Shown: positions 12,446 to 54,422 of the stretch, piece after piece
How positions within the stretch are numbered: the first letter of the stretch is position 1
Layout of the letters: each line of letters opens with the position of its first letter
Assembly: GCA_002709955.1 (NCBI GenBank)
Contig: PAQY01000002.1
Span: 480,448-544,447 of the forward strand
Reading direction: 5' to 3'
DNA from: Rhodospirillaceae bacterium
GTDB taxonomy: Bacteria > Pseudomonadota > Alphaproteobacteria > UBA8366 > Aestuariispiraceae
DNA length: 64,000 nucleotides
Made by a program: the position numbers and the translations under genes
Notes under the pieces: model-generated
Seen by the model: the letters and a program-made list of their open reading frames with translations, nothing else
What the model was told of the DNA's origin: nothing
Databases searched by the model: none

Positions 12446-13516
12446 ATGTCGGATCATGGGGGCACCAGGATGTCACGGCTGTTAGGGGTAGGGCGCTTTG
12501 CGGGGCGCATTTCAGTGCTTGCCATCCTTCTGATTGGGCTTGGCGGATGTGCTGAAATGCAATTCCTGTCTGAGGCGTCAAAGCAGGTGAATGGAACTGT
12601 CACGCGCCCGCCCAGCGATCCTAATATGCCGGATCTGGGCAGTCGCTATAAGATTGGCAATCCCTATCAGGTTGGGGGGATCTGGTATTATCCCAAGGAA
12701 GATTTCACCTATACGGAGGAAGGGATCGCCTCCTGGTATGGGCCCGGATTTGATGGCAAGCCCACGGCCAACGGGGCCACCTTTTATGAAAACAGGGTGT
12801 CTGCCGCACACCGTACCCTGCCAATTCCTTCTATGGTGCGGGTGACGAACCTGGAAAACGGGCGCTCGATCAAGGTGATTGTGAATGATCGGGGGCCTTT
12901 TGCACACAGCCGTATTATTGATATGTCCCGCCGCGCCGCCCAACTGCTGGGGTTTGAGCGCAAGGGGACAACCCTGGTCCGTGTTGAAATGCTGGAGCAG
13001 GAAAGCCGTCAATTGGTGGCGATGCTGAATGGCGGCGGTGCCGTGGCAAACAACACCATGACCCCGATTGTGTCCAGTGGACCGGAATCTCCTACCCCGG
13101 CCGCAGCCCCAACCGCCCAGGTCAGTGGTGAGGATTTGGCCCCACCGCCAGGCGTTGCCGTATCAGAACCCAGTCAGGTTGCCAGTGCACCCCAGGCCCC
13201 CGCCGACCCGGGGGAACGTCCTGCAATTGTTGAACAATCCCTAGACAGCGGTACAGTGGAACAGATGCCGGTAGAGCCCAATCCGCATGTCTTTATTCAG
13301 GCCGGAGCCTTTGGTCAGTATGACAATGCCAATCGGGCGCGCTCCATGCTGGGCTATCTGGGGCCGGTCATTGTGGAAGAGATCACGCGGTCGGAAACGC
13401 CGTTGTTCCGGGTGCGGATCGGCCCCTTGGCAGATGATGACAGGCTGGAATCCTTGTTGGTTGCTGTTATTCAGGCAGGTTATACGGATGCGGCAATTGT
13501 CGTGCCGAAGAAATAG
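12446..13516 (+). CDS. rlpA: RlpA-type septal ring lytic transglycosylase lipoprotein
   Basis: 356 residues. A lipoprotein signal ends in LIGLGGC with the lipidated Cys at 35. The double-psi beta-barrel RlpA domain covers about 88-185: GIASWYGPGFDGKPTANGA and VNDRGPFAHSRIIDMS hold the conserved active residues. A Pro/Ala-rich linker leads to a C-terminal SPOR domain (about 280-352, FIQAGAFGQYDNANRA), which binds denuded septal glycan. It acts at the division septum. GGGGGAG just before the ATG at 12446 supports this start. It lies in a cell-wall cluster with mltB and the following carboxypeptidase gene. Confidence 0.93.
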   Translation: MSDHGGTRMSRLLGVGRFAGRISVLAILLIGLGGCAEMQFLSEASKQVNGTVTRPPSDPNMPDLGSRYKIGNPYQVGGIWYYPKEDFTYTEEGIASWYGPGFDGKPTANGATFYENRVSAAHRTLPIPSMVRVTNLENGRSIKVIVNDRGPFAHSRIIDMSRRAAQLLGFERKGTTLVRVEMLEQESRQLVAMLNGGGAVANNTMTPIVSSGPESPTPAAAPTAQVSGEDLAPPPGVAVSEPSQVASAPQAPADPGERPAIVEQSLDSGTVEQMPVEPNPHVFIQAGAFGQYDNANRARSMLGYLGPVIVEEITRSETPLFRVRIGPLADDDRLESLLVAVIQAGYTDAAIVVPKK

Positions 13517-16615: not shown

Positions 16616-18178
16616 ATGACGCCCGACCCTAAGAAGACATTCTATATCACGACCGCGATTTCCTATGTGAATGGACCGCCCCATCTGGGCCATGCCTATG
16701 AGGCAATTTCCTGTGATGTGATCGCCCGGTTCAAGCGATTGGATGGCTATGACGTGATGTTCCTGACCGGCACGGACGAGCATGGTCAGAAGGTGGAAAA
16801 AACCGCCAAGGCCAAGGGGATCGATCCCATGGCCTTCAGCGACGGCATTTCCGCCCAGTTTCAGGCGATGGCGACAGAGCTGAATATCTCCAATGACGAC
16901 TTTATCCGCACGACCGAGCCCCGCCATTTCGCCAGCGTTCAGGAAATATGGAAACGCATCGCTGATAAGGGCGATATCTATCTGGATAAATATGCCGGTT
17001 GGTATTCTGTCCGGGACGAAGCCTATTTTGGCGAAGACGAGCTGACCAAGGGCGAGGGTGACAATAAAGGCAAATTCTTCGCCCCGTCCGGTGCCGAGGT
17101 GGAATGGGTGGAGGAAGAGTCCTATTTCTTCCGCCTGTCAGCCTATGGCGACAAGCTGCTGGCGCATTACGAAGCGAACCCGGATTTTATCCTGCCGCAT
17201 TATCGCCGCAACGAAGTGGTGAATTTCGTGAAACAGGGGCTGACAGATCTGTCCGTTTCGCGCACCAGTTTTAATTGGGGCATTCCGGTGCCGGGCGATG
17301 ACAAGCATATCATGTATGTCTGGCTGGATGCGCTTACCAATTATATCACCGCGACCGGTTTCCCGGATGAAACCACTGAAACCTATAAGAAATTCTGGCC
17401 CGCCGATATTCATGTCATCGGCAAGGATATCATGCGGTTCCACACGATCTATTGGCCCGCCTTCCTGATGTCCGCAGACCTGCCTCTGCCCAAGCGGGTG
17501 TTCGGTCATGGCTTTTTGAATATCGAAGGCCAGAAGATGTCCAAATCCTTGGGCAATGTCATCACGCCCCAGGCCATTGTCGGTGAATTCGGGCTGGATC
17601 AGGTGCGCTATTTCCTGATGCGCGAAGTGCCCTATGGCAATGATGGGTCGTTTTCCAAGGAAAGCATGGTCAACCGTATCAATTCCGATCTGGCAAATGA
17701 TCTGGGCAATCTGGGACAGCGGGTTCTGTCCATGATCGCCAAGAATTGCGATGGCAAAGTCCCAACACCCGGCCCGTTCACGCCGGAAGATGAGGTCCTG
17801 ATGGCTGCGGCCAGCCAGGCCCTGGTCGACATGCGCATCCAGATGGATGCCCAGGCCATCCATAAGATGCTGGAGGCAATTTGGAAGGTTGTGGGCGATG
17901 CCAACCGCTATGTGGATGCCCAGGCCCCCTGGACCCTGAAAAAGACCGATTTCGCCCGCATGGAAACGGTGCTGTATGTGCTGGCCGATGTTATCCGTGT
18001 GCTGGGCATTTATGTGCAATGTGTCGTGCCGGCTTCTGCTCAGATCTTGCTGGGGCAGTTGGCTGTCCCCATGGATCAGCGCAGTTTCGCTGATACCGAG
18101 ACACGTCTGGTACCGGGAACTGCTTTGCCAACCCCATCGCCCGTATTCCCACGCTATGTAGAAGCAGAGGAGGCGTAA
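16616..18178 (+). CDS. metG: methionyl-tRNA synthetase
   Basis: 520 residues. The class I signatures are visible: HLGH in [12 protein letters not shown] near residue 20 and KMSKS in [11 protein letters not shown] near 304. The anticodon-binding helical domain follows (about 370-510). There is no C-terminal EMAP-like tRNA-binding domain, so this is the short form, expected to act without the dimerisation module. An ATG at 16616 is preferred to a TTG at 16592, which has no better ribosome-binding site. It is in the operon with holB and the TatD-type gene. Confidence 0.96.
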
Positions 18179-18183
18179 GCCCG

Positions 18184-18978
18184 ATGCTGGTCGATAGCCA
18201 TTGCCACCTAGATTACCTGCAACGCGACGGGCGCGACCTGAATGAGGTTGTGGCTGCCGCGCAACGGGCCGGGGTTGGAACCTTGGTGACGATCTGCACA
18301 AAGGTTCGTGAATTCAAGATTATACGTGATATCGCTGATGCACATGATGAAGTGTGGTGCACGGTTGGCATTCACCCCCATGAGGCGGAAAAAGAGCCGG
18401 AGGTCACGACCGAACAACTGGTAGATTTTGCCCAGCACCCAAAAGTCGTCGGGATTGGGGAGACGGGGCTGGATTACTTTTATGAGCACAGCCCCCGGGA
18501 TATCCAGAAGCGCAGCTTTCGTGCCCATATCGCAGCCTCCCGTGAGACGGGTCTGCCCCTGATCGTCCATACCCGCGATGCCGATGAAGACACGATTGAA
18601 ATTCTGGAAGATGAAATGGCCAAGGGCGCATTCCCCGGCGTCATCCATTGTTTCAGCAGCAGCAAATGGCTGGCGGAACGCTCTGTCGCTATGGGATTTG
18701 CGATTTCCATTTCCGGCATTCTGACCTTCAAATCTGCAGAAGATATCCGTAATTCTGTTGCTGCGGTGCCGCTGGAAAACCTGCTGGTGGAAACAGACTC
18801 GCCCTATCTGGCCCCGGTGCCAAAGCGCGGGAAACAGAATGAGCCGGCCTATGTCGTGCACACGGCGGAAAAACTGGCGGATCTGATGGGGGTTACGGGG
18901 GAAGAACTGGCAACCCGCACCACGGATAATTTCTTTCGCTATTTCAGCAAGACCAGACGTCCCGGAGCAACCGCATGA
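18184..18978 (+). CDS. tatD: TatD-family metal-dependent hydrolase
   Basis: 264 residues with the amidohydrolase-like TIM barrel of the TatD family. Metal ligands are visible in VDSHCHLDYL (residues 3-9), GIGETGLDYF and PLIVHTRDADEDT, with the final Asp in VETDSPYLAPVP. Members are reported as 3'-5' DNases or as tRNA/RNA quality-control hydrolases. The gene sits just after metG, as in many bacteria where it is named ycfH-like, and overlaps the next gene by 4 bp. The exact substrate is not clear from sequence. Confidence 0.93.
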   Translation: MLVDSHCHLDYLQRDGRDLNEVVAAAQRAGVGTLVTICTKVREFKIIRDIADAHDEVWCTVGIHPHEAEKEPEVTTEQLVDFAQHPKVVGIGETGLDYFYEHSPRDIQKRSFRAHIAASRETGLPLIVHTRDADEDTIEILEDEMAKGAFPGVIHCFSSSKWLAERSVAMGFAISISGILTFKSAEDIRNSVAAVPLENLLVETDSPYLAPVPKRGKQNEPAYVVHTAEKLADLMGVTGEELATRTTDNFFRYFSKTRRPGATA

Positions 18979-21855: not shown

Positions 21856-22231
21856 ATATATCGGGTCGACATCCCGGACACCAGTGCGCACAAGCGGCTG
21901 TGACGGGAAGAGTAAACGCAGAGGGGCGCAGAGTAGGCGCGAAGGACGCAGAGGGGATGGTGTGCTATGGGGAACCACGTCTGACCTTCCGCCCTATTCT
22001 CATCCTGAGGGGCGCTGTAAGTTCGGTGCTTACAGCAGGTCACCCTTCGAGACGTTGCACTCCTGAGGGTGAGAGTGGTGTTTCAAAAATTCGTCATCCC
22101 GGACTTGATCCGGGATCCAGGGCAGCAGGCGCATTTGGTGCTTGTGACCTGCCTGCGCGGGTATGATGGGGATGTCATCATGGTAACATGGGGTGGATTG
22201 GCCGGGAGGGGCACCTTTTGCCAACCAGGCC
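21856..22231. other. repeat-bearing intergenic region between convergent cyclase and PPOX genes
   Basis: 376 bp without a credible gene. It contains one copy of the composite repeat described at 21913-22185. The short open frames here fall inside the repeat and lack a ribosome-binding site and coding bias. Confidence 0.7.
21913..22185 (+). repeat. composite intergenic repeat, copy 1 (modules A-B-C, deleted left arm of B)
   Basis: Module A (about 21913-21994) contains GGCGCGAAGGACGCAGAGG. Module B (about 21995-22077) is bounded by TCATCCTGAGG and ACCCTTCGAGACG...CTCCTGAGGGTGA; the 5' arm is shortened by about 30 bp relative to copies 2 and 3. Module C (about 22091-22185) opens with CGTCATCCCGGACTTGATCC, contains the dyad CCCGGA/TCCGGG, and closes near GCGCGGGTATGATG. 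The same modules occur in the same order and orientation downstream of eno. Confidence 0.85.
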
Positions 22232-22855
22232 TTAGTATATTTCCTGTTTCATGCGGTCGGGGTAGTCGCTGTCATAGGCCTTGCCGTCGAATGTGCCCTT
22301 GCTGAGTGTGCTGAGGATCTGACCGGCAGAGGGCAGGGCCTTGCGGTCCAGGCGGGTTTCGGGGTCCCACAGCTGAGATCGGGCCAGGGCTTTCTGGCAT
22401 TGGAAATAGACGCGATCCACCTGTACCTGGACCACGCTGCGGGGCGGCTTGCCCTGCATGATGAAACGATCCAGCAGTTCCGGGGCGACGCTGATTGTCG
22501 CGCGGCCATTGATGCGCAGGGTCTCCCCAATGCCGGGGATCAGGAACAGCAGTGAAACCCGTGGATCGCGCACAATGTTGCGCAGGGAATCGATGCGGTT
22601 ATTCCCGCGACGGTCCGGGATCAGGACGGTACGGTTATCCGCGATGTGAACGAATCCGGCAGGGTCGCCTCGGGGGGAGCTGTCCAGGCCTTCCGGGCCG
22701 ACGGTGGATAGCACGACGAAGGGGGAGGCTTCGATAAAGGCGCGATAGTGATCGGATATATAGTCGATTTCTTTGATCAGGGAGGTTTCTTTGGGAACCC
22801 CATACAGTGCTTCCAGATCCTCAACTGTGCTGAGTGTGTGATCGGATGCCGTCAT
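22232..22855 (-). CDS. pyridoxamine 5'-phosphate oxidase-family flavoprotein
   Basis: 207 residues forming the split-barrel FMN-binding fold. Typical segments are FVVLSTVGPEGLDSSPRGD (about 48-66), VLIPDRRGNNRIDSL and VSLLFLIPGIGETLRINGRA. It resembles the general PPOX family with a GxGETLRINGRA motif more than true PdxH, which would carry PLP-binding residues. Substrates of this group are mostly unknown; F420- or FMN-dependent reduction is common. A longer open frame upstream is only antisense overlap with trpE; the ATG at 22855 follows AGGAG. It lies 23 bp after trpE on the same strand. Confidence 0.85.
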   Translation of the reverse strand: MTASDHTLSTVEDLEALYGVPKETSLIKEIDYISDHYRAFIEASPFVVLSTVGPEGLDSSPRGDPAGFVHIADNRTVLIPDRRGNNRIDSLRNIVRDPRVSLLFLIPGIGETLRINGRATISVAPELLDRFIMQGKPPRSVVQVQVDRVYFQCQKALARSQLWDPETRLDRKALPSAGQILSTLSKGTFDGKAYDSDYPDRMKQEIY

Positions 22856-32534: not shown

Positions 32535-32836
32535 TAACCGCAAAGGGCGCAGAGAAGGCGCGAAGGACGCGGAGGGGATGGTGCGTTATGGCGTTCCGCG
32601 TCTTACCTTCCGCGCCATTCTCATCCTGAGGAGGCGCGACAGCGCCGTCTCGAAGGATGCGCGGTAAGTCTGATGCTTACAGTGGGCTCGCCCTTCGAGA
32701 CGCTGCGCTCCTCAGAGTGAGGGAGTATTTATCCTGAAATACCGTCATCCCGGACGTGATCCGGGGTCCAGGGTGGCAGGCGCGATTGATGCTTCTGGCT
32801 CTGGGTACCCGCCTGCGCGGGTGTGACGAGATGGTA
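32535..32836 (+). repeat. composite intergenic repeat, copy 2 (complete A-B-C)
   Basis: Module A (about 32535-32615) has AGAAGGCGCGAAGGACGCGG. Module B (about 32616-32725) is an imperfect inverted repeat: CTCATCCTGAGGAGGCGCG and GTCTCGAAGGATG on the left match CCCTTCGAGACG and GCGCTCCTCAGAGTGAGG on the right in reverse complement. Module C (about 32741-32836) runs from CGTCATCCCGGACGTGATCC to GCGCGGGTGTGACGA, whose ends are also roughly inverted. This is the most complete copy. Confidence 0.88.
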
Positions 32837-32841
32837 AAGAT

Positions 32842-33093
32842 TAACCGCAAAGAGCGCAGAGAAGGCGCGAAGGACGCGGAGGGGATGCTGCGTTATGGCG
32901 TTCCACGTCTGCCCTTCCGCGCCATTCTCATCCTGAGGAGGTGCGACAGCGCCGTCTCGAAGGATGCGCTGTAAGTCCGGTGGTTACAGACAGATCACCC
33001 TTCGAGACGCTGCGCTCCTCAGGGTGAGGGTGTAAATGTCTAATACATCGTCATCCCGGACGTGATCCGGGGTCCAGGGTGGCAGGTGCGATT
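32842..33093 (+). repeat. composite intergenic repeat, copy 3 (tandem, module C truncated)
   Basis: Begins 307 bp after the start of copy 2 in the same orientation. Modules A (about 32842-32922) and B (about 32923-33031) are almost identical to copy 2, and module C starts at about 33048 but loses similarity after GGTCCAGGGTGGCAGG. The 307-bp period shows tandem duplication of the whole composite unit, not separate insertions. Confidence 0.87.
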
Positions 33094-33422
33094 GTACAGG
33101 CGCGCGTTATCTTCCGTCTTAGACTCGCTTTGGTGAGAAGCAGTCGCTGTTTCGGGATGCAGTTTGGGGAGGGGAAGGGGGATACATATGGGGTATCGAC
33201 AGGCACCGCCATGTCAGCAATTTTGACCTTTAAGGCGCGGCATTTGCTTCTAGCGCCTGATTTCCCGCCATATACCATATCATGACTCACCTACCACTGC
33301 TTGAGTTCAGGGGTCCTCTGATAGGCAATATATGCCACCAGAATGGGCAAAAAGTTCCTACTAAGTTATTGAAAATATTGCCCATTGACGCGGACTCGGT
33401 TCCGTGATTCAAGGGGTGTGCT

Positions 33423-44525: not shown

Positions 44526-44623
44526 AAGCGGGTTTCCTATTCACTTTCCGGCATGTCTGGTGCGACACAGATGGCTTAGAATTGTCGTTTCAGGCTGGCG
44601 CGACGGGTGCTATATACCCCACC

Positions 44624-45418
44624 ATGATAATAGAGTCGCCCGTCTTTCAAATCATCGCATTGTGTTGCTTGGGTCCAGCGATTTGGGCTTCGATCCGGAA
44701 TTGGCCGCGCAACGCTGTCTATTGGGCCGTAATCGCGCTTGCTGTGCTTGGCCCGGTCCTATGGTGCTTTGGTGTCTTGCAGGCAGGGTGGCGAACGGAT
44801 TTTTCCTTCACAATCTGGGTTTCGGTCGCTACGACACTGACCTTGCTGACAATGCTGGCCCTGCGGCTGGAGGCGGCACGTCGCCTGATCGTTCTGGCGC
44901 TGCCGTATCTTGCCTTCCTGATTGGTTTTGCGATTCTCTCAAATCGGGGGGATCATAATCTTGCCCAGCCGCCTGATATCTGGGTGATCGTTCATATCAT
45001 TGTTGCGGTGATGACCTATGCGCTGTTGACCCTGGCGGCGGTTGCGGCCCTGGCGGTGTTCATTAAGGAACGCGCCCTGAAGGCCAAGCGCAGCGGCGCT
45101 GTTGCGTCAGTGTTGCCGTCGGTTGCGGAAGGCGAAAGCCTGCAAGATCGCCTTATGGCAACCTGTGAGGGTGTGTTGGGCCTGGGTCTGGTCACGGGCA
45201 TCGCCATTCATGTGGAACATGGACAGCGCTTGCTGGAACCGGATCATAAGACCGTCCTGACATTCGCTGCCTTTGTTGTGATTGGCGTGCTGTTGATCCT
45301 GCAACGCTATAGCGGATTGCGGGGGCGGCGTGCGTCCCAATTTGTCATGATGGCGTATCTGCTGGTGACTTTGGCCTATCCGGGCGTGAAGTTCGTATCG
45401 GATGTCTTGTCCGGATAA
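44624..45418 (+). CDS. CcsA/YpjD-like cytochrome c assembly family membrane protein
   Basis: 264 residues with about eight membrane helices spread along the whole length. A conserved His in VIVHIIVAVMTYALLTLAAV and another in IAIHVEHGQRL fit the CcsA/YpjD family, as does the ending FVMMAYLLVTLAYPGVKF. Members are linked to cytochrome c maturation or, in the YpjD branch, to haem or metal handling. ATG at 44624 is preferred because 14 upstream residues from 44582 look unrelated. The neighbours do not include other ccm genes, so the role is uncertain. Confidence 0.82.
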   Translation: MIIESPVFQIIALCCLGPAIWASIRNWPRNAVYWAVIALAVLGPVLWCFGVLQAGWRTDFSFTIWVSVATTLTLLTMLALRLEAARRLIVLALPYLAFLIGFAILSNRGDHNLAQPPDIWVIVHIIVAVMTYALLTLAAVAALAVFIKERALKAKRSGAVASVLPSVAEGESLQDRLMATCEGVLGLGLVTGIAIHVEHGQRLLEPDHKTVLTFAAFVVIGVLLILQRYSGLRGRRASQFVMMAYLLVTLAYPGVKFVSDVLSG

Positions 45419-45495: not shown

Positions 45496-46542
45496 TTGCC
45501 TAAAGAATGGGCGTTCATTGTGACTGCACAGAAAATCAGCAGTACGCTTTCGGGCCTGTCTGTCGGCCCCCACCGTATCGAGACGCCGGTTTATCTGGCG
45601 CCCATGTCGGGTGTGACAGATCTTCCTTTCCGGACCGTGGCCCAGGAATTGGGTGCGCAAGCCGTTGTTTCTGAAATGATTGCCAGTGGTGAAGCCATTC
45701 GGGAAACGCGCGGCACCCTAAAGCGGGCGCGCGCCGGCACTGGGGCTGGCCCGCATATTGTCCAGTTGGCCGGCCATGATCCGGCAATCATGGCGGAGGC
45801 TGCGCGACTGTGTACGGATTTAGGCGCGGATATCATTGATTTGAATTTTGGATGCCCCGCGAAAAAGGTGACACGCAAGCTGTGCGGATCGGCCCTGATG
45901 CGCGACCTGGATCAGGCCCTGGCGATAGTTGAGGCTGTGGTGGCTGCTGTTGACGCGCCGGTCACGATAAAGATGCGGACCGGCTGAGATCAGGATTGCC
46001 GCAATGCGCCCGACTTCGCCAGGCGGGCTGAAAATGCGGGCGTCCGGCTGGTCACGGTTCATGGGCGCACCCGCGAACAGAAATATACCGGCAGCGCCGA
46101 CTGGTCTTTTATCCGGACGGTGAAGGCTGCGGTCACCATTCCGGTAATCGCCAATGGGGATATAAAGAGCTTTTCCGATATCGACGACTGTCTGGCGGCG
46201 TCTGGCGCAGATGGGGTCATGATCGGGCGTGGCGCACAGGGCCGCCCCTGGTTTCCGGGACACGCCATCGCCTATCTGCGCGACGGTGTTGTCATGGCGG
46301 AGCCACCGCCATCCCAGCGGCGCGACATTCTGTTGCGGCATCTGGATGGTATTTTAAGCCATCACGGAACCAATATCGGATTGCGCATCGCCCGCAAGCA
46401 TATCGCCTGGTCAATTGCGGGATTGGACGGGGCTGCCGCCTTTCGGTCCCAGGCCATGGCGGCAGAAGATTACAGGGCCGTCCAGGCGATCATCCGGGCC
46501 GCCTTTGAAATACAGCAAGAGTATCTGGGGGAGGCCGCATAG
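45496..46542 (+). pseudogene. dusB: dusB (tRNA-dihydrouridine synthase) interrupted by an in-frame TGA
   Basis: The reading frame continues from 45496 to 46542 (348 codons) but has a TGA at 45985-45987, codon 164 from this start. The place normally reads KMRTGWDD in the family; here it is KMRTG-stop-DQ, so TGG has become TGA with no shift or length change. The first part holds PMSGVTDLPF and the catalytic Cys in NFGCPAKKVTRK (codon 120); the second holds [16 protein letters not shown] and [17 protein letters not shown] at 45520 may be the true start. The end overlaps ntrB. It may be a recent loss, a sequencing error or readthrough. Confidence 0.88.
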
Positions 46543-47687
46543 TGCTGAATGCCATAAAGAATACTTTTGGGGGTGGCCCGTCGCGCCCTGGCGCTGACAG
46601 TGTTATCGACTCCATTCCAGATCCGATCATTGTTGTCGATGAACATAACGATGTCGTCTTTTTGAACGCAGCCGGTCAGAATTTCCTGCAAGGGTCGGAA
46701 ACAATGCTGGTTGGCGTCAATCTGCAGGATCTGATCCCCCATGACAGCCCGATCCTGGCTGTCGTGGATCGTGCCCGGCGGGTTGGCAGTTCCATGACCG
46801 TGCATGGTGTCCGGCTGTCCACGCCGCGCCTTGGGGCCCATACCGTGACCGTAGATGCGGCCCCCTTGGCAGATCGCCGGGATTGTATCGTCATCACAGT
46901 CAAGGAACATTCCATCGCGGGCAAAATTGACCATGCCATGACGCAACGGGGGGCGGCCCGCTCTGTCACCGCATTGGCAGCAATGCTGGCGCATGAGGTC
47001 AAGAATCCGCTGTCTGGCATTCGCGGTGCGGCGCAATTGCTGGAAAGCATGGTTCCCGCCGAAGACCGCCAGCTGACCGTTCTGATCACCGAAGAAACCG
47101 ACCGGATCGTGAAATTGCTGGATCGGATGGAGATTTTTTCCGACCGTCCACATTTAATCCGCGAACCGGTCAACATCCATCAGGTGCTGGACCGTGTGCT
47201 GGAAATTGCCCGCAATGGATTTGGTAAGGGAATGCGGCTGATATCCAACTATGATCCCTCACTGCCACCCATATTGGGCGACAGGGATCAACTGGTGCAG
47301 ATTTTCCTTAATCTGGTGAAAAATGCAGCGGAAGCCGCGGCGGATGGGGCACCGGGCGATCCAGAAATAATCGTATCGACCGCCTATCGCCATGGCGTTC
47401 GGCTGGCCGTTCCTGGCCTGGATGCGCCGATGCATCTGCCCCTGGTCGTGTCCGTCCGGGATAATGGTGGCGGCATAACCGATGATTTGCGCCCGCATCT
47501 GTTTGATCCCTTTATTACAACGAAATCCGGTGGCTCTGGCCTGGGATTGGCGCTGGTGGCGAAACTGGTTTCAGAACATGGCGGTGTCATTGATTTTGAA
47601 AGCCGCCCAAGACGCACAATTTTTTCGGTGATGCTGCCTGTCCTGCGCGCTGAAAAGAAACTGCCGAAATCCGGAAGGAAGGGGTAA
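46542..47687 (+). CDS. ntrB: nitrogen regulation sensor histidine kinase NtrB
   Basis: 381 residues, cytoplasmic. A PAS domain (about 20-120, [18 protein letters not shown]) is followed by the dimerisation domain with the phospho-His in [16 protein letters not shown] near 153 and the ATPase domain (about 250-370, [22 protein letters not shown]). It phosphorylates NtrC under nitrogen limitation and responds to PII. The GTG start at 46542 overlaps the dusB stop and follows GGGGGAG. It lies 5 bp before ntrC. Confidence 0.96.
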
Positions 47688-47692
47688 TCGCG

Positions 47693-49150
47693 ATGGCCGG
47701 CGAAACAATCCTTGTAGCGGATGATGATCGGGCTATCCGCACTGTTGTGACCCATGCCTTGACGCGCCAGGGCTATGAAGTCCGCGCCACAGGCAATGCC
47801 GCGACCTTATGGCGCTGGGTATCGGAAGGAGAGGGCAATCTGGTCGTAACCGATGTGGTGATGCCAGACGGCAATGGCCTGGACCTGATCCCGCAGATCC
47901 GCAAGATTCGTCCCGATCTGCGCGTTATTGCGATGAGCGCACGCAATACCCTGTTGACCGCCGTGAAGGCGACAGAGCGCGGGGCCTTTGAATATCTGCC
48001 AAAGCCGTTTGATTTGACGGTTCTGGTCGATACCGTCGGGCGCGCCCTGAAATCTCAGGTCAGCGATCCAGGCGATATTGCCCCCAACGATTCAGAAGAA
48101 GAGCCGATGCCCCTGATCGGACGGTCGGCGGCGATGCAGGATGTGTATCGCGTGATTGCGCGCCTGACAGGAACGGACCTGTCCGTGCTGATTAGTGGCG
48201 AATCTGGCACCGGTAAAGAGCTGGTTGCCCGCGCCTTGCATGATTTTTCCCGCCGCAAGAATGGTCCATTCGTGGCGGTCAATATGGCAGCCATTCCCCG
48301 CGACTTGATCGAAAGTGAATTGTTCGGGCATGAGCGCGGCGCCTTTACGGGCGCAACGCAGCGGAAATCCGGGCGGTTTGAACTGGCCGAAGGCGGGACC
48401 CTGTTTCTGGACGAAATCGGCGATATGCCGCTGGAAGCCCAAACGCGGCTGCTGCGAGTGCTGCAAGAGAGTGAATATACCATGGTCGGCGGGCGCAATC
48501 CGATCAAGACGGATGTTCGGATCGTCACCGCAACGCACCGGGATTTGCGTCAACTGGTCTCGCAAGGCCTGTTCCGGGAAGATTTGTATTATCGCCTGAA
48601 TGTTGTGCCCATTCGATTGCCGCCATTGAGAGAGCGTCGGGAAGACGTGCCAGACCTGGTGCGGCATTTTCTGATCAGCGCCGCGGAATCGGGGCTGCCC
48701 CTGAAGACCCTGACAGAAGCATCGATGGAGCGTCTGATGCGCCACCGCTGGCCGGGTAATGTGCGCGAGTTGGAGAATCTGGTGCGCCGCCTGGGGGCCT
48801 TATACGCACAGGATCGTATCGATCAGGAAATTATTGAGGCGGAATTGGGCGAAGCCCCCAGTTTCACAGGTCCACAAGAGGCGCAAGACCCTGGCTCAGA
48901 AAGTCTGTCGGATGCCGTCCATCGCCATCTGACAGTTTATTTTGAGACACATGGCGATCAATTGCCAGCGGCTGGGCTGCACGCCCGAATCTTGCGCGAG
49001 ATTGAGCGGCCCCTGATCGAAATCAGTTTGAATGCGACCCGTGGCAACCAGGTCAGAACCGCAGAATTGTTGGGCCTGAACCGAAACACGCTGCGCAAGA
49101 AGATCCGGGATCTGGATATCTCTGTCGTTCGCGGTGGCAAAGACGCATGA
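47693..49150 (+). CDS. ntrC: nitrogen regulation response regulator NtrC
   Basis: 485 residues. REC domain (phosphoacceptor near 54 in [10 protein letters not shown]), sigma-54 AAA+ domain with Walker A GESGTGKE near 170 and an intact GAFTGA loop near 217 in [12 protein letters not shown], and a FIS-type DNA-binding end ([20 protein letters not shown]). It activates nitrogen-assimilation promoters with RpoN. Its neighbour ntrB encodes its kinase; a gap of 70 bp leads to ntrY. Confidence 0.97.
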
Positions 49151-51584: not shown

Positions 51585-52991
51585 ATGGCTTATGATATTC
51601 TGATTGTCGATGATGAGACCGATATCCGGACCCAGATATCTGGGATTCTGGAAGATGAAGGCTATCAAACCCGCAGCGCGTCGAATTCGGCAGAGGCCTT
51701 GGCGGCGGTTGCCAACCGTCAGCCATCGCTGATGATCCTGGATGTCTGGTTGGCCAATTCGGAATATGACGGCATTCAAATACTGGAAATCGTGCATCGC
51801 GACCACCCCGGCCTGCCTGTGGTGATGATCAGCGGTCATGGCACCTTTGATATGGCTGTGTCGGCCACCAAGAAGGGCGCGTATGATTTCATCTCAAAGC
51901 CGTTCAAAACGGATGTGTTGCTGCTGACCATCGAACGGGCTTTGGCGGAATCGCGCCTGAAACATGAAAATGAGTCGCTGCGCAAACTTTCTCCTTACGC
52001 GATGCTGGATGATCTTGTCGGGAAATCTGGTGCGATTGCAGAAGTTCGGCGCGCTGTTGAAAAGGTGGCCCAGACCGACAGTCGCGTGCTGATTTCCGGC
52101 CCGCCGGGCAGCGGTAAGGGGGCTATTGCCCGTATGCTGCACAGCCGATCCCTGCGTAAGAATGGCCGCTTCGTTGTGTTGACCTGTGCCACGCTCAGCG
52201 AAGACACCCTGGAACAAGCGCTGTTTGGGACAGAGGCGACGAAATCGCAACCCCGGCGCATTGGCGTGCTGGAAGAAGCCCATGGCGGGACGCTGTTGCT
52301 GGATGAAGTCGCCGATATGGATATGGCGACCCAGTTGAAGATGGTCCGGGTTCTGCACAATAGACGGTTTCAGCGCATCGGCGGCGATACAGTGGTTGAG
52401 GTGAATTCCCGCGTTCTGGCCACCACGACCCGCGACTTACAAGCCCTGATCGCGGAGGGTAAGTTTCGGGAAGATTTGTTCTATCGTCTGAATGTGGTTC
52501 CGATTCATGCGCCCCCGTTGAGTGACCGACGGGAGGATATTCCGCTGCTGGCCGTGCATCTTATGGAACGATCAGCCGCAGCGAAAAGCAGGTCGCCCCG
52601 CATTTTGGGCGCGGATGCACTGACGGCCCTACAGGGGCATGATTGGCCCGGCAATGTCTGGGAATTATCCAATGTTATGGAGCGTTTATTGCTGATGGCG
52701 CCTGGTGGATCGCAGGATCATATCCATGCAGAAGCGGTTGGACAGGCGATAGGGGCCGCTGCGGGGGCCGCCTCCCGCTGGGACCATGCACCAGAGGTGA
52801 TGAGCCTACCTTTGCGCGAAGCACGCGAAGCGTTTGAGCGGGAATATCTGGTCTTTCATCTGGCCCGGTTTGGCGGCAATATTTCACGCACGGCAGAATT
52901 TGTCGGCATGGACCGCGCCGCATTGCACCGGAAACTGAAGGGGCTGGGCGTTGCTGGTGCCAATCGCGGTCGGTTGGATGACAAGGAATAA
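51585..52991 (+). CDS. ntrX: nitrogen/redox regulation response regulator NtrX
   Basis: 468 residues. REC domain with phosphoacceptor near 52 (MILDVWLAN), AAA+ domain with Walker A GPPGSGKGAI near 171 and a C-terminal FIS-like helix-turn-helix (NISRTAEFVGMDRAALHRKL). The GAFTGA sigma-54-contact loop is missing; the corresponding place reads FGTEATKSQPRRIG, as in other alphaproteobacterial NtrX. It is therefore likely to act without activating sigma-54. It works with NtrY in nitrogen, redox and envelope regulation. Confidence 0.95.
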   Translation: MAYDILIVDDETDIRTQISGILEDEGYQTRSASNSAEALAAVANRQPSLMILDVWLANSEYDGIQILEIVHRDHPGLPVVMISGHGTFDMAVSATKKGAYDFISKPFKTDVLLLTIERALAESRLKHENESLRKLSPYAMLDDLVGKSGAIAEVRRAVEKVAQTDSRVLISGPPGSGKGAIARMLHSRSLRKNGRFVVLTCATLSEDTLEQALFGTEATKSQPRRIGVLEEAHGGTLLLDEVADMDMATQLKMVRVLHNRRFQRIGGDTVVEVNSRVLATTTRDLQALIAEGKFREDLFYRLNVVPIHAPPLSDRREDIPLLAVHLMERSAAAKSRSPRILGADALTALQGHDWPGNVWELSNVMERLLLMAPGGSQDHIHAEAVGQAIGAAAGAASRWDHAPEVMSLPLREAREAFEREYLVFHLARFGGNISRTAEFVGMDRAALHRKLKGLGVAGANRGRLDDKE

Positions 52992-53045
52992 GTCGCCTTT
53001 CACGGACCCCAACTAGGGCCGGAAACTGCGCTAAGGAGCCTGAAA

Positions 53046-54422
53046 ATGAAGGTTGTCATTTGTGGTGCCGGCCAAGTCGGTTTCCATATTGCAAGATATC
53101 TGTCCGGGGAAGACAACGATGTCACCGTTGTAGACCAATCCCCTGAATTGATTGGCAAGATCAACGATCAACTGGATGTTCAGGCCTTTGTCGGCCATGC
53201 TTCGCATCCTGATGTCCTGGAACGGGCAGGGGCGCGGGACGCCAATATGCTGATCGCCGTCACCTTCACTGACGAGGTGAATATGATCGCCTGTCAGGTG
53301 GCCCATACCCTGTTTAATGTGCCAACCAAGATCGCGCGGATCCGGCAACAGAGCTATCTGAACCCGATGTGGTCCAATCTGTTCGCCAGGGATCAATTGC
53401 CGATTGATGTTATCATTTCGCCTGAAATTGAGGTCGCGCGTGCGATTGCCCGGCGCATTCGGGCCCCCGGCGCGTTCGACATGATCCGCATGGGGGATGA
53501 CAAGGTGCGCGTGATCGGCGTGCGATGTGATGACAAATGCCCGGTCATCCACACGCCATTGCGTCAGTTGACCTCCTTGTTCCCAGATCTGAACATCACG
53601 GTCTTGGCGATTTTTCGGAATGAGACCATGCATATCCCATCAGCCGACGATCAAATGCTGCCGGGGGATGATGTCTATTTCATCGCTGAAACCGACCATG
53701 TTCCCCGCGCCATGTCCGTCTTTGGTCATGAGGAGAAGGAAGCCCGGCGCATTCTGATCGTGGGGGGCGGGAATATCGGCACCACCCTGGCCGAAGAATT
53801 GGAATCCAGTTCCGACGGATATTCCGCCAAGATCGTTGAAATGGACAAGAACCGCGCCCGTCAGGTGGCGGAAGTCCTGCCGACAACCGTTGTTATTCAG
53901 GGTGATGCGCTGGATCATGAGATCCTGGAAGAGGCTGGCATTCGCAATGCAGAAGCAGTCGTTGCCGTCACCGATGACGATGAAACCAATATTCTGTGTT
54001 CCCTGCTGTGCAAGCGATTTGGTGTTGATCGCGCCATTACCCTGGTGAACAAGAATTCCTATGGTCCATTGATCACGACATTGGGGATTGATGTTGTCGT
54101 CAGTCCGCGTGAAATTACGGCGTCCACTATTTTGCAGCATGTCCGACGGGGCCGCATTCGTCAGGTGCACAGCCTGCGCGACGGGTTTGCTGAATTGATT
54201 GAGGCCGAAGCGATGGAAACATCCAGCCTGGTTGGGGAGGCACTGCGGGATGCCAAACTGCCAAACGGTGTCATCATCGGGGCGATCATCCGGGGGGATG
54301 AGGTGATCATTCCACGGCCTGATACGGTGGTTCGAACGAAGGACCGGGTGGTGCTGTTGGCCGCTGCTTCAGCCGTTAAGAAAATGGAAAAGATGTTCGC
54401 TGTAAGACTAGAATATTTTTAA
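53046..54422 (+). CDS. trkA: Trk potassium transporter regulatory subunit TrkA
   Basis: 458 residues with two Rossmann (RCK) halves. The nucleotide motifs are CGAGQVGFHIARYL and VGGGNIGTTLAEEL near 240, each followed by a TrkA-C domain. It binds NAD(H) or ATP on the cytoplasmic face of TrkG/TrkH potassium channels. AAGGAG before the ATG is a good ribosome-binding site. The position after ntrX is typical of the class. No trkH is present in this window. Confidence 0.96.
   Translation: MKVVICGAGQVGFHIARYLSGEDNDVTVVDQSPELIGKINDQLDVQAFVGHASHPDVLERAGARDANMLIAVTFTDEVNMIACQVAHTLFNVPTKIARIRQQSYLNPMWSNLFARDQLPIDVIISPEIEVARAIARRIRAPGAFDMIRMGDDKVRVIGVRCDDKCPVIHTPLRQLTSLFPDLNITVLAIFRNETMHIPSADDQMLPGDDVYFIAETDHVPRAMSVFGHEEKEARRILIVGGGNIGTTLAEELESSSDGYSAKIVEMDKNRARQVAEVLPTTVVIQGDALDHEILEEAGIRNAEAVVAVTDDDETNILCSLLCKRFGVDRAITLVNKNSYGPLITTLGIDVVVSPREITASTILQHVRRGRIRQVHSLRDGFAELIEAEAMETSSLVGEALRDAKLPNGVIIGAIIRGDEVIIPRPDTVVRTKDRVVLLAAASAVKKMEKMFAVRLEYF

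Follow-up and report, generated by a model that had tools for sequence, protein, structure and literature searches.

Introduction

What does a single in-frame stop codon in an otherwise well-preserved gene mean: a true mutation by which an enzyme is lost, an error in the assembled sequence, or a codon that the cell still reads as an amino acid? This question is raised by dusB of a Rhodospirillaceae bacterium. The gene lies in a stretch of 64,000 nucleotides, which was analysed as a whole and is called the window below, on contig C1, which is 564,678 bases long, in an assembly of 4.23 Mb and 24 contigs that is 99.62% complete. An earlier note on this DNA had claimed that a TGA stands in dusB in place of a conserved tryptophan codon and that any loss of the gene would be very recent. 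DusB is reported from nearly all bacteria (PMC3674756), which suggests that losing it has some cost. As to the cause of the stop, a nonsense mutation private to this genome is most likely, followed by a consensus error in the assembly and, in third place, by a leaky allele that still yields some enzyme.

The interrupted dusB gene

The TGA is a real feature of the assembly. It is the sole internal stop of the frame 45496-46542, is flanked by KMRTG and DQDCRNAP in the translation, and lies outside any homopolymer. With the TGA read as a residue, the frame reaches 349.3 bits in the NCBIfam model for DusB, TIGR00737, for which the cut-off is 293.3, whereas the pieces 5′ and 3′ of it score 152.3 and 174.3 bits separately, each below the cut-off, and cover profile positions 2-141 and 143-316. 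Since the two pieces meet at positions 141/143, exactly one residue has been replaced and there is no frameshift; the proposal of a single substitution in a gene with two well-preserved halves thus holds. The piece 5′ of the stop contains the cysteine motif NxGCPAKKV in the form NFGCPAKKV, aligned with that of E. coli DusB (6ei9), and its cysteine is presumably the catalytic one. According to one report, a Cys100Ala mutant of DusB is devoid of dihydrouridine (D) synthesis (PMC12700106). The gene is therefore like DusB/NifR3 (TIGR00737, 6ei9) in its full-length similarity across the stop and in its cysteine motif, and unlike it in the internal TGA, with which the encoded product is a half-barrel.

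Where does translation of this frame start? The reading frame given in the earlier note stands, but its TTG start at 45496 is less likely than the GTG at 45520. The TTG is not common to relatives, since a stop occupies query residue 5 in three of their loci (L008, L009 and L022), and the GTG aligns with the methionine of two related genomes, G002 and G004. From this probable start, translation would stop at codon 156 and leave a 155-residue half-barrel, which would keep the cysteine motif and lack the second half of the flavin-binding barrel as well as the helical domain, and so should be inactive. Restart of translation 3′ of the TGA was rejected, because the earliest in-frame ATG, GTG or TTG is at 46120, too far downstream to save the barrel. 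The features of the locus are collected in Table 1.

Table 1. Positions of dusB and the neighbouring genes in the window
Feature	Position	Strand	Basis or remark
Upstream membrane protein, weakly CcsB-like	44582..45418	+	33.1 bits, below the cut-off of 187.6
dusB (nifR3), tRNA-dihydrouridine synthase B, interrupted	45520..46542	+	Profile and relatives; GTG start inferred
Predicted truncated product, 155 residues	45520..45984	+	First half of TIM barrel with the cysteine motif NFGCPAKKV
In-frame TGA	45985..45987	+	Codon 156 of 340 from 45520; Trp codon in 95 of 97 other loci
Open frame 3′ of the TGA	45988..46542	+	Encodes second barrel half and helical domain
ntrB-like sensor kinase, intact	46542..47687	+	Best model NtrB PRK11073, 201.3 bits, below the cut-off of 240
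ntrC, intact	47693..49150	+	TIGR01818, 682.2 bits (cut-off 558.6)

Distribution of the stop among relatives

Is the stop found in related genomes? The codon at this site was read by tblastn in 98 dusB loci, which include same-species duplicates (L005/L010/L019/L020, L006/L021 and L009/L022): it encodes tryptophan in 95, valine in one (L065) and phenylalanine in one (L083), and is a stop in one, the present genome. This comparison, for which the earlier note had called, confirms the conserved tryptophan codon and shows the TGA to be private (1 of 98 loci). Absence of this in-frame stop from the orthologues, as in a pseudogene made by nonsense mutation, is thus what is found, and sharing of the stop by two or more species, as in conserved readthrough, is not seen in any of the 97 other loci. 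The 98 loci leave out five further long dusB matches of the order (G037-G039, G041 and G042), three of which are flagged with stops (one TAA in G038, one TAA in G041, a TAG and a TAA in G042). The dusB-ntr region of the relative G001 is found on two contigs, C77 and C79 (L005 and L010), probably by assembly redundancy (contamination 7%).

Two candidates for a stop shared with relatives were rejected: a TGA flagged in G002 and G004 occupies query residue 5, upstream of the likely start, and a TAG in G003 (L006/L021, JARGPE010000217.1) is internal but lies elsewhere, at query residue 248. The latter is the one other internal dusB stop among the 98 loci, all remaining stops being at query residues 5 to 20, 5′ of the likely starts. 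G003 is a related species known from a metagenome assembly with a coverage of about 4; its ntrB and ntrC are stop-free, unlike its dusB.

A profile survey of the whole class found a DusB match at E ≤ 1e-70 in at least 213 of 289 genomes, and at least 205 of them were above the cut-off. The matches listed, among which the present gene does not figure, reach E = 1.6e-108 and broken copies would score lower, so that the survey gives no rate of interruption. Three of the matches listed have a stop, in each case TAA; with open frames of 314-321 amino acids and profile ends at 316-318, these are most likely terminal stops. A limited literature search, which is no proof of absence in print, found no dusB pseudogene made by a premature stop.

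Mutation or consensus error

We consider it probable that the TGA arose very recently, by a nonsense mutation private to this genome, in a dusB that is normal in all other respects; the base would then be real in the organism and DusB activity would be lost. The chief competitor, which we hold to be unlikely though far from negligible, is a single-base error in the consensus of the assembly, with the gene intact in the organism. Such an error would fit a stop that is unique at its codon among the 98 loci and a gene in which the rest is free of any decay, and the low-coverage record of G003 illustrates how internal stops may arise as false calls. Against it, the site lies on a long contig of a near-complete assembly and, as noted, outside a homopolymer, and the change from TGG to TGA belongs to the G-to-A transitions, which are frequent among real mutations.

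It also speaks against an error that no second broken gene was found among the conserved open reading frames (ORFs) that the window has in common with G001. Counterparts in the window were found for 51 of 77 ORFs of G001, and six were flagged as interrupted, one of them being dusB. Two of the others are antisense to window ORFs (18018-18845 to the intact 18184-18978, and 52729-54210 to 53046-54422), two look like spurious frames (22081-22830, with 67% identity and four stops, and 32923-33270, with 73.5% identity and four stops), and one is cut by the end of the window. With the comparison turned round, a G001 match was obtained for 51 of the 61 ORFs of the window, and 10 were flagged in the resulting table. 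The first 9 kb of the window have no counterpart in the G001 stretches compared; in the part common to both, there is no clear internal stop besides that of dusB and hence no general decay. Two minor observations on the comparison with G001 may be added. Short stretches of window 32536-33093 match several places of the G001 region by blastn, which suggests repeated sequence, and a 356-residue ORF at 12446-13516 has a best G001 match over residues 1-213 with a stop, so that it is possibly broken or diverged in G001.

Genetic code and readthrough

Could the TGA be read as an amino acid? In this genome TGA is a real stop within a standard code. Both class I release factors are encoded, and TGA terminates 17 of 37 conserved ORFs of the window. 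The RF2 gene keeps its programmed +1 frameshift motif, CTTTGAC after an AGGAGG stretch, where TGA is used as a stop. No internal stop occurs in the 97 ABC_tran or the 33 Response_reg matches of the genome, and none of the 44 tRNAs named by ARAGORN has a stop-reading anticodon; in particular, there is no UCA tRNA. The tRNA-Trp has the anticodon CCA with a 5-bp anticodon stem (ACGGT/ACCGT) and an intact D stem (GCTC/GAGC). An unusual tRNA-Val(AAC) was seen near the end of a 28.9-kb contig (L155).

A change of the code by which UGA means tryptophan, or insertion of selenocysteine, could in principle explain a TGA at a tryptophan codon, and we regard either as very improbable. The former is rejected by the presence of RF2, the use of TGA as a stop, the stop-free gene families, and the lack of a tRNA-Trp(UCA) among the 44 tRNAs. 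As to the latter, SelA and tRNA-Sec were both looked for in the genome and neither was found. The best SelA match scores 14.7 bits, below the cut-off of 22.8. The tRNA-Sec model gives 15 matches, of which two score at or above the cut-off and prove to be a tRNA-Leu and a tRNA-Ser; 12 matches below it are ordinary tRNA sites, and one (C4:7385-7469, 28.0 bits, cut-off 47) is no tRNA according to ARAGORN. The residue in relatives is, moreover, tryptophan and not cysteine. Among the genes tested, there is thus no dedicated recoding system, and the stop in dusB does not point to an altered genetic code and changes no general view. A tRNA suppressor of the TGA was likewise not found among the 44 tRNAs of the assembled genome. 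tRNA-Ile(GAT) and tRNA-Ala(TGC) are missing among these, which indicates that part of the genome, probably the rRNA operon, is unassembled, and a suppressor could in principle be encoded there.

The earlier note had suggested that D formation might depend on readthrough. This is weakened by the lack of a suppressor tRNA, a selenocysteine route or a code change, while basal misreading of UGA by the ordinary tRNA-Trp is still conceivable. In such a leaky allele, tRNA-Trp (CCA) would misread the UGA at a low level and insert tryptophan, giving a little full-length DusB. Tryptophan, the conserved residue, is just what near-cognate misreading would insert, there is no decay 3′ of the stop, and for E. 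coli a UGA readthrough of 12% is reported, for Pseudomonas one of 0.04-0.08% (PMC9481147). Readthrough-prone forms of tRNA-Trp have a 4-bp anticodon stem or a G24A change (PMC13092985). The dusB case is like that system in having UGA at a tryptophan position and unlike it in the tRNA, since the 5-bp stem and the D stem found here are neither the 4-bp-stem form nor a G24A-type change. Furthermore, no specialised readthrough context is evident at this UGA. Many bacterial in-frame stops have been argued to be under purifying selection and thus not to mark pseudogenes, and to be short-lived (PMC7918605). The dusB stop resembles these young stops in being single, in lying in an otherwise conserved gene and in being apparently short-lived. 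The focus of that work is on stops common to at least two species, whereas this one is in no other species examined, so that its conservation argument for function does not apply here. On balance, a leaky allele is improbable as the explanation.

Age of the stop

How old can the stop be? Compared with G001, the nearest relative, both halves of dusB show a dS of about 0.36. The dN/dS ratio is 0.032 for the 5′ half and 0.125 for the 3′ half, while ntrB has 0.032 and ntrC 0.004. Faster change of the 3′ half is also seen against G003 (0.070 to 0.042) and against G002, for which dS is saturated and dN amounts to 0.278 in this half and to 0.134 in the 5′ one, and the changes are not concentrated on the present branch. 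When amino-acid changes other than the stop were polarised by the majority of six outgroups, seven fell on this branch, 12 on that of G001 and three were unclear; these counts give no clear sign of relaxed selection in dusB on this branch. A young mutation would account for this, and so would a sequence error or some remaining function of the gene.

If f is the fraction of the branch that was free of constraint, about 136 f neutral changes are expected in dusB, and the seven seen give f ≤ about 0.10 at 95%, a rough bound for which the branch was taken as half of dS; the 3′ half alone gives f ≤ 0.16. It follows that either the stop arose very recently, or the organism does not have it, or some function is left and the cell tolerates it; the claim that any loss would be very recent is upheld within this bound.

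The operon and the probable loss of DusB

The gene precedes ntrB and ntrC, an arrangement described for Sinorhizobium as the dusB-ntrBC operon (PMC10746234), and in relatives the membrane protein gene upstream forms the left edge of the dusB slot. ntrB, which had been described as overlapping and intact, is indeed both: its GTG start shares a single base with the stop codon that ends dusB (TAGTG). Just 5′ of this start is a ribosome-binding-like GGGGGAGG, and own translation of ntrB is thus probably possible. This GGGGGAGG and the sister family described below argue that ntrBC may be expressed without translation of dusB, and both regulators, being intact, are probably still expressed. A promoter scan gave no promoter-like sites, and four terminator-like sites against 2.3 expected.

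Loss of dusB in this genome is plausible, since a sister family of the same order, f3, has no dusB in exactly this operon slot and has kept ntrB-ntrC. None of its seven genomes (completeness 65-96%) has a match above the DusB cut-off, and NtrC is over the cut-off in five of the seven. In all five loci compared (L184-L188, from G025, G026, G029, G031 and G027, respectively), ispDF and a ccsA-like gene are followed by ntrB-ntrC with no dusB match, about 160-230 bases separating the ccsA-like and ntrB matches. pgpA is in place, and so is cinA in four, the fifth stretch stopping at a contig end. The gene order of this family shows a natural loss of dusB from the same slot with the regulators kept. 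One may go further and suppose that the need for dusB has weakened in the genus and that the gene has been lost repeatedly (the TGA here, the TAG of G003, its absence from f3), the present allele being caught in the middle of loss with a trace of enzyme made by UGA misreading; we consider this a long shot. If the nonsense mutation is real, it would be a natural case in which an operon that includes the nitrogen regulators NtrBC has lost a widespread tRNA-modifying enzyme, standing beside a sister family in which the loss is complete, and would allow one to ask which conditions make DusB dispensable.

What would such a loss mean for the tRNAs? A search of the genome with the Dus Pfam model gave dusB, dusA and one weak match, and thus no further DusB. 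The weak match (C1:248609-248869; 20.1 bits, 25 with its neighbours, cut-off 20.4) was rejected as a spare Dus because it is a HisA-like piece. The dusA gene, on contig C6, is intact, with a DusA score of 491.5 bits (cut-off 269). In E. coli, DusB modifies U17 and DusA U20/20a, while the DusB of Mycoplasma modifies three sites (PMC9176250). As DusA is kept, D at 20/20a should persist, and there should be little or no D at the site served by DusB, which in E. coli is position 17. The DusB of Vibrio cholerae also has a role as an NADPH oxidase in oxidative stress (PMC12700106). In an approximate reading of position 17, a T lies directly 5′ of the D-loop GG in 31 of 43 distinct tRNAs of this genome, so that many tRNAs could be affected by the loss of DusB.
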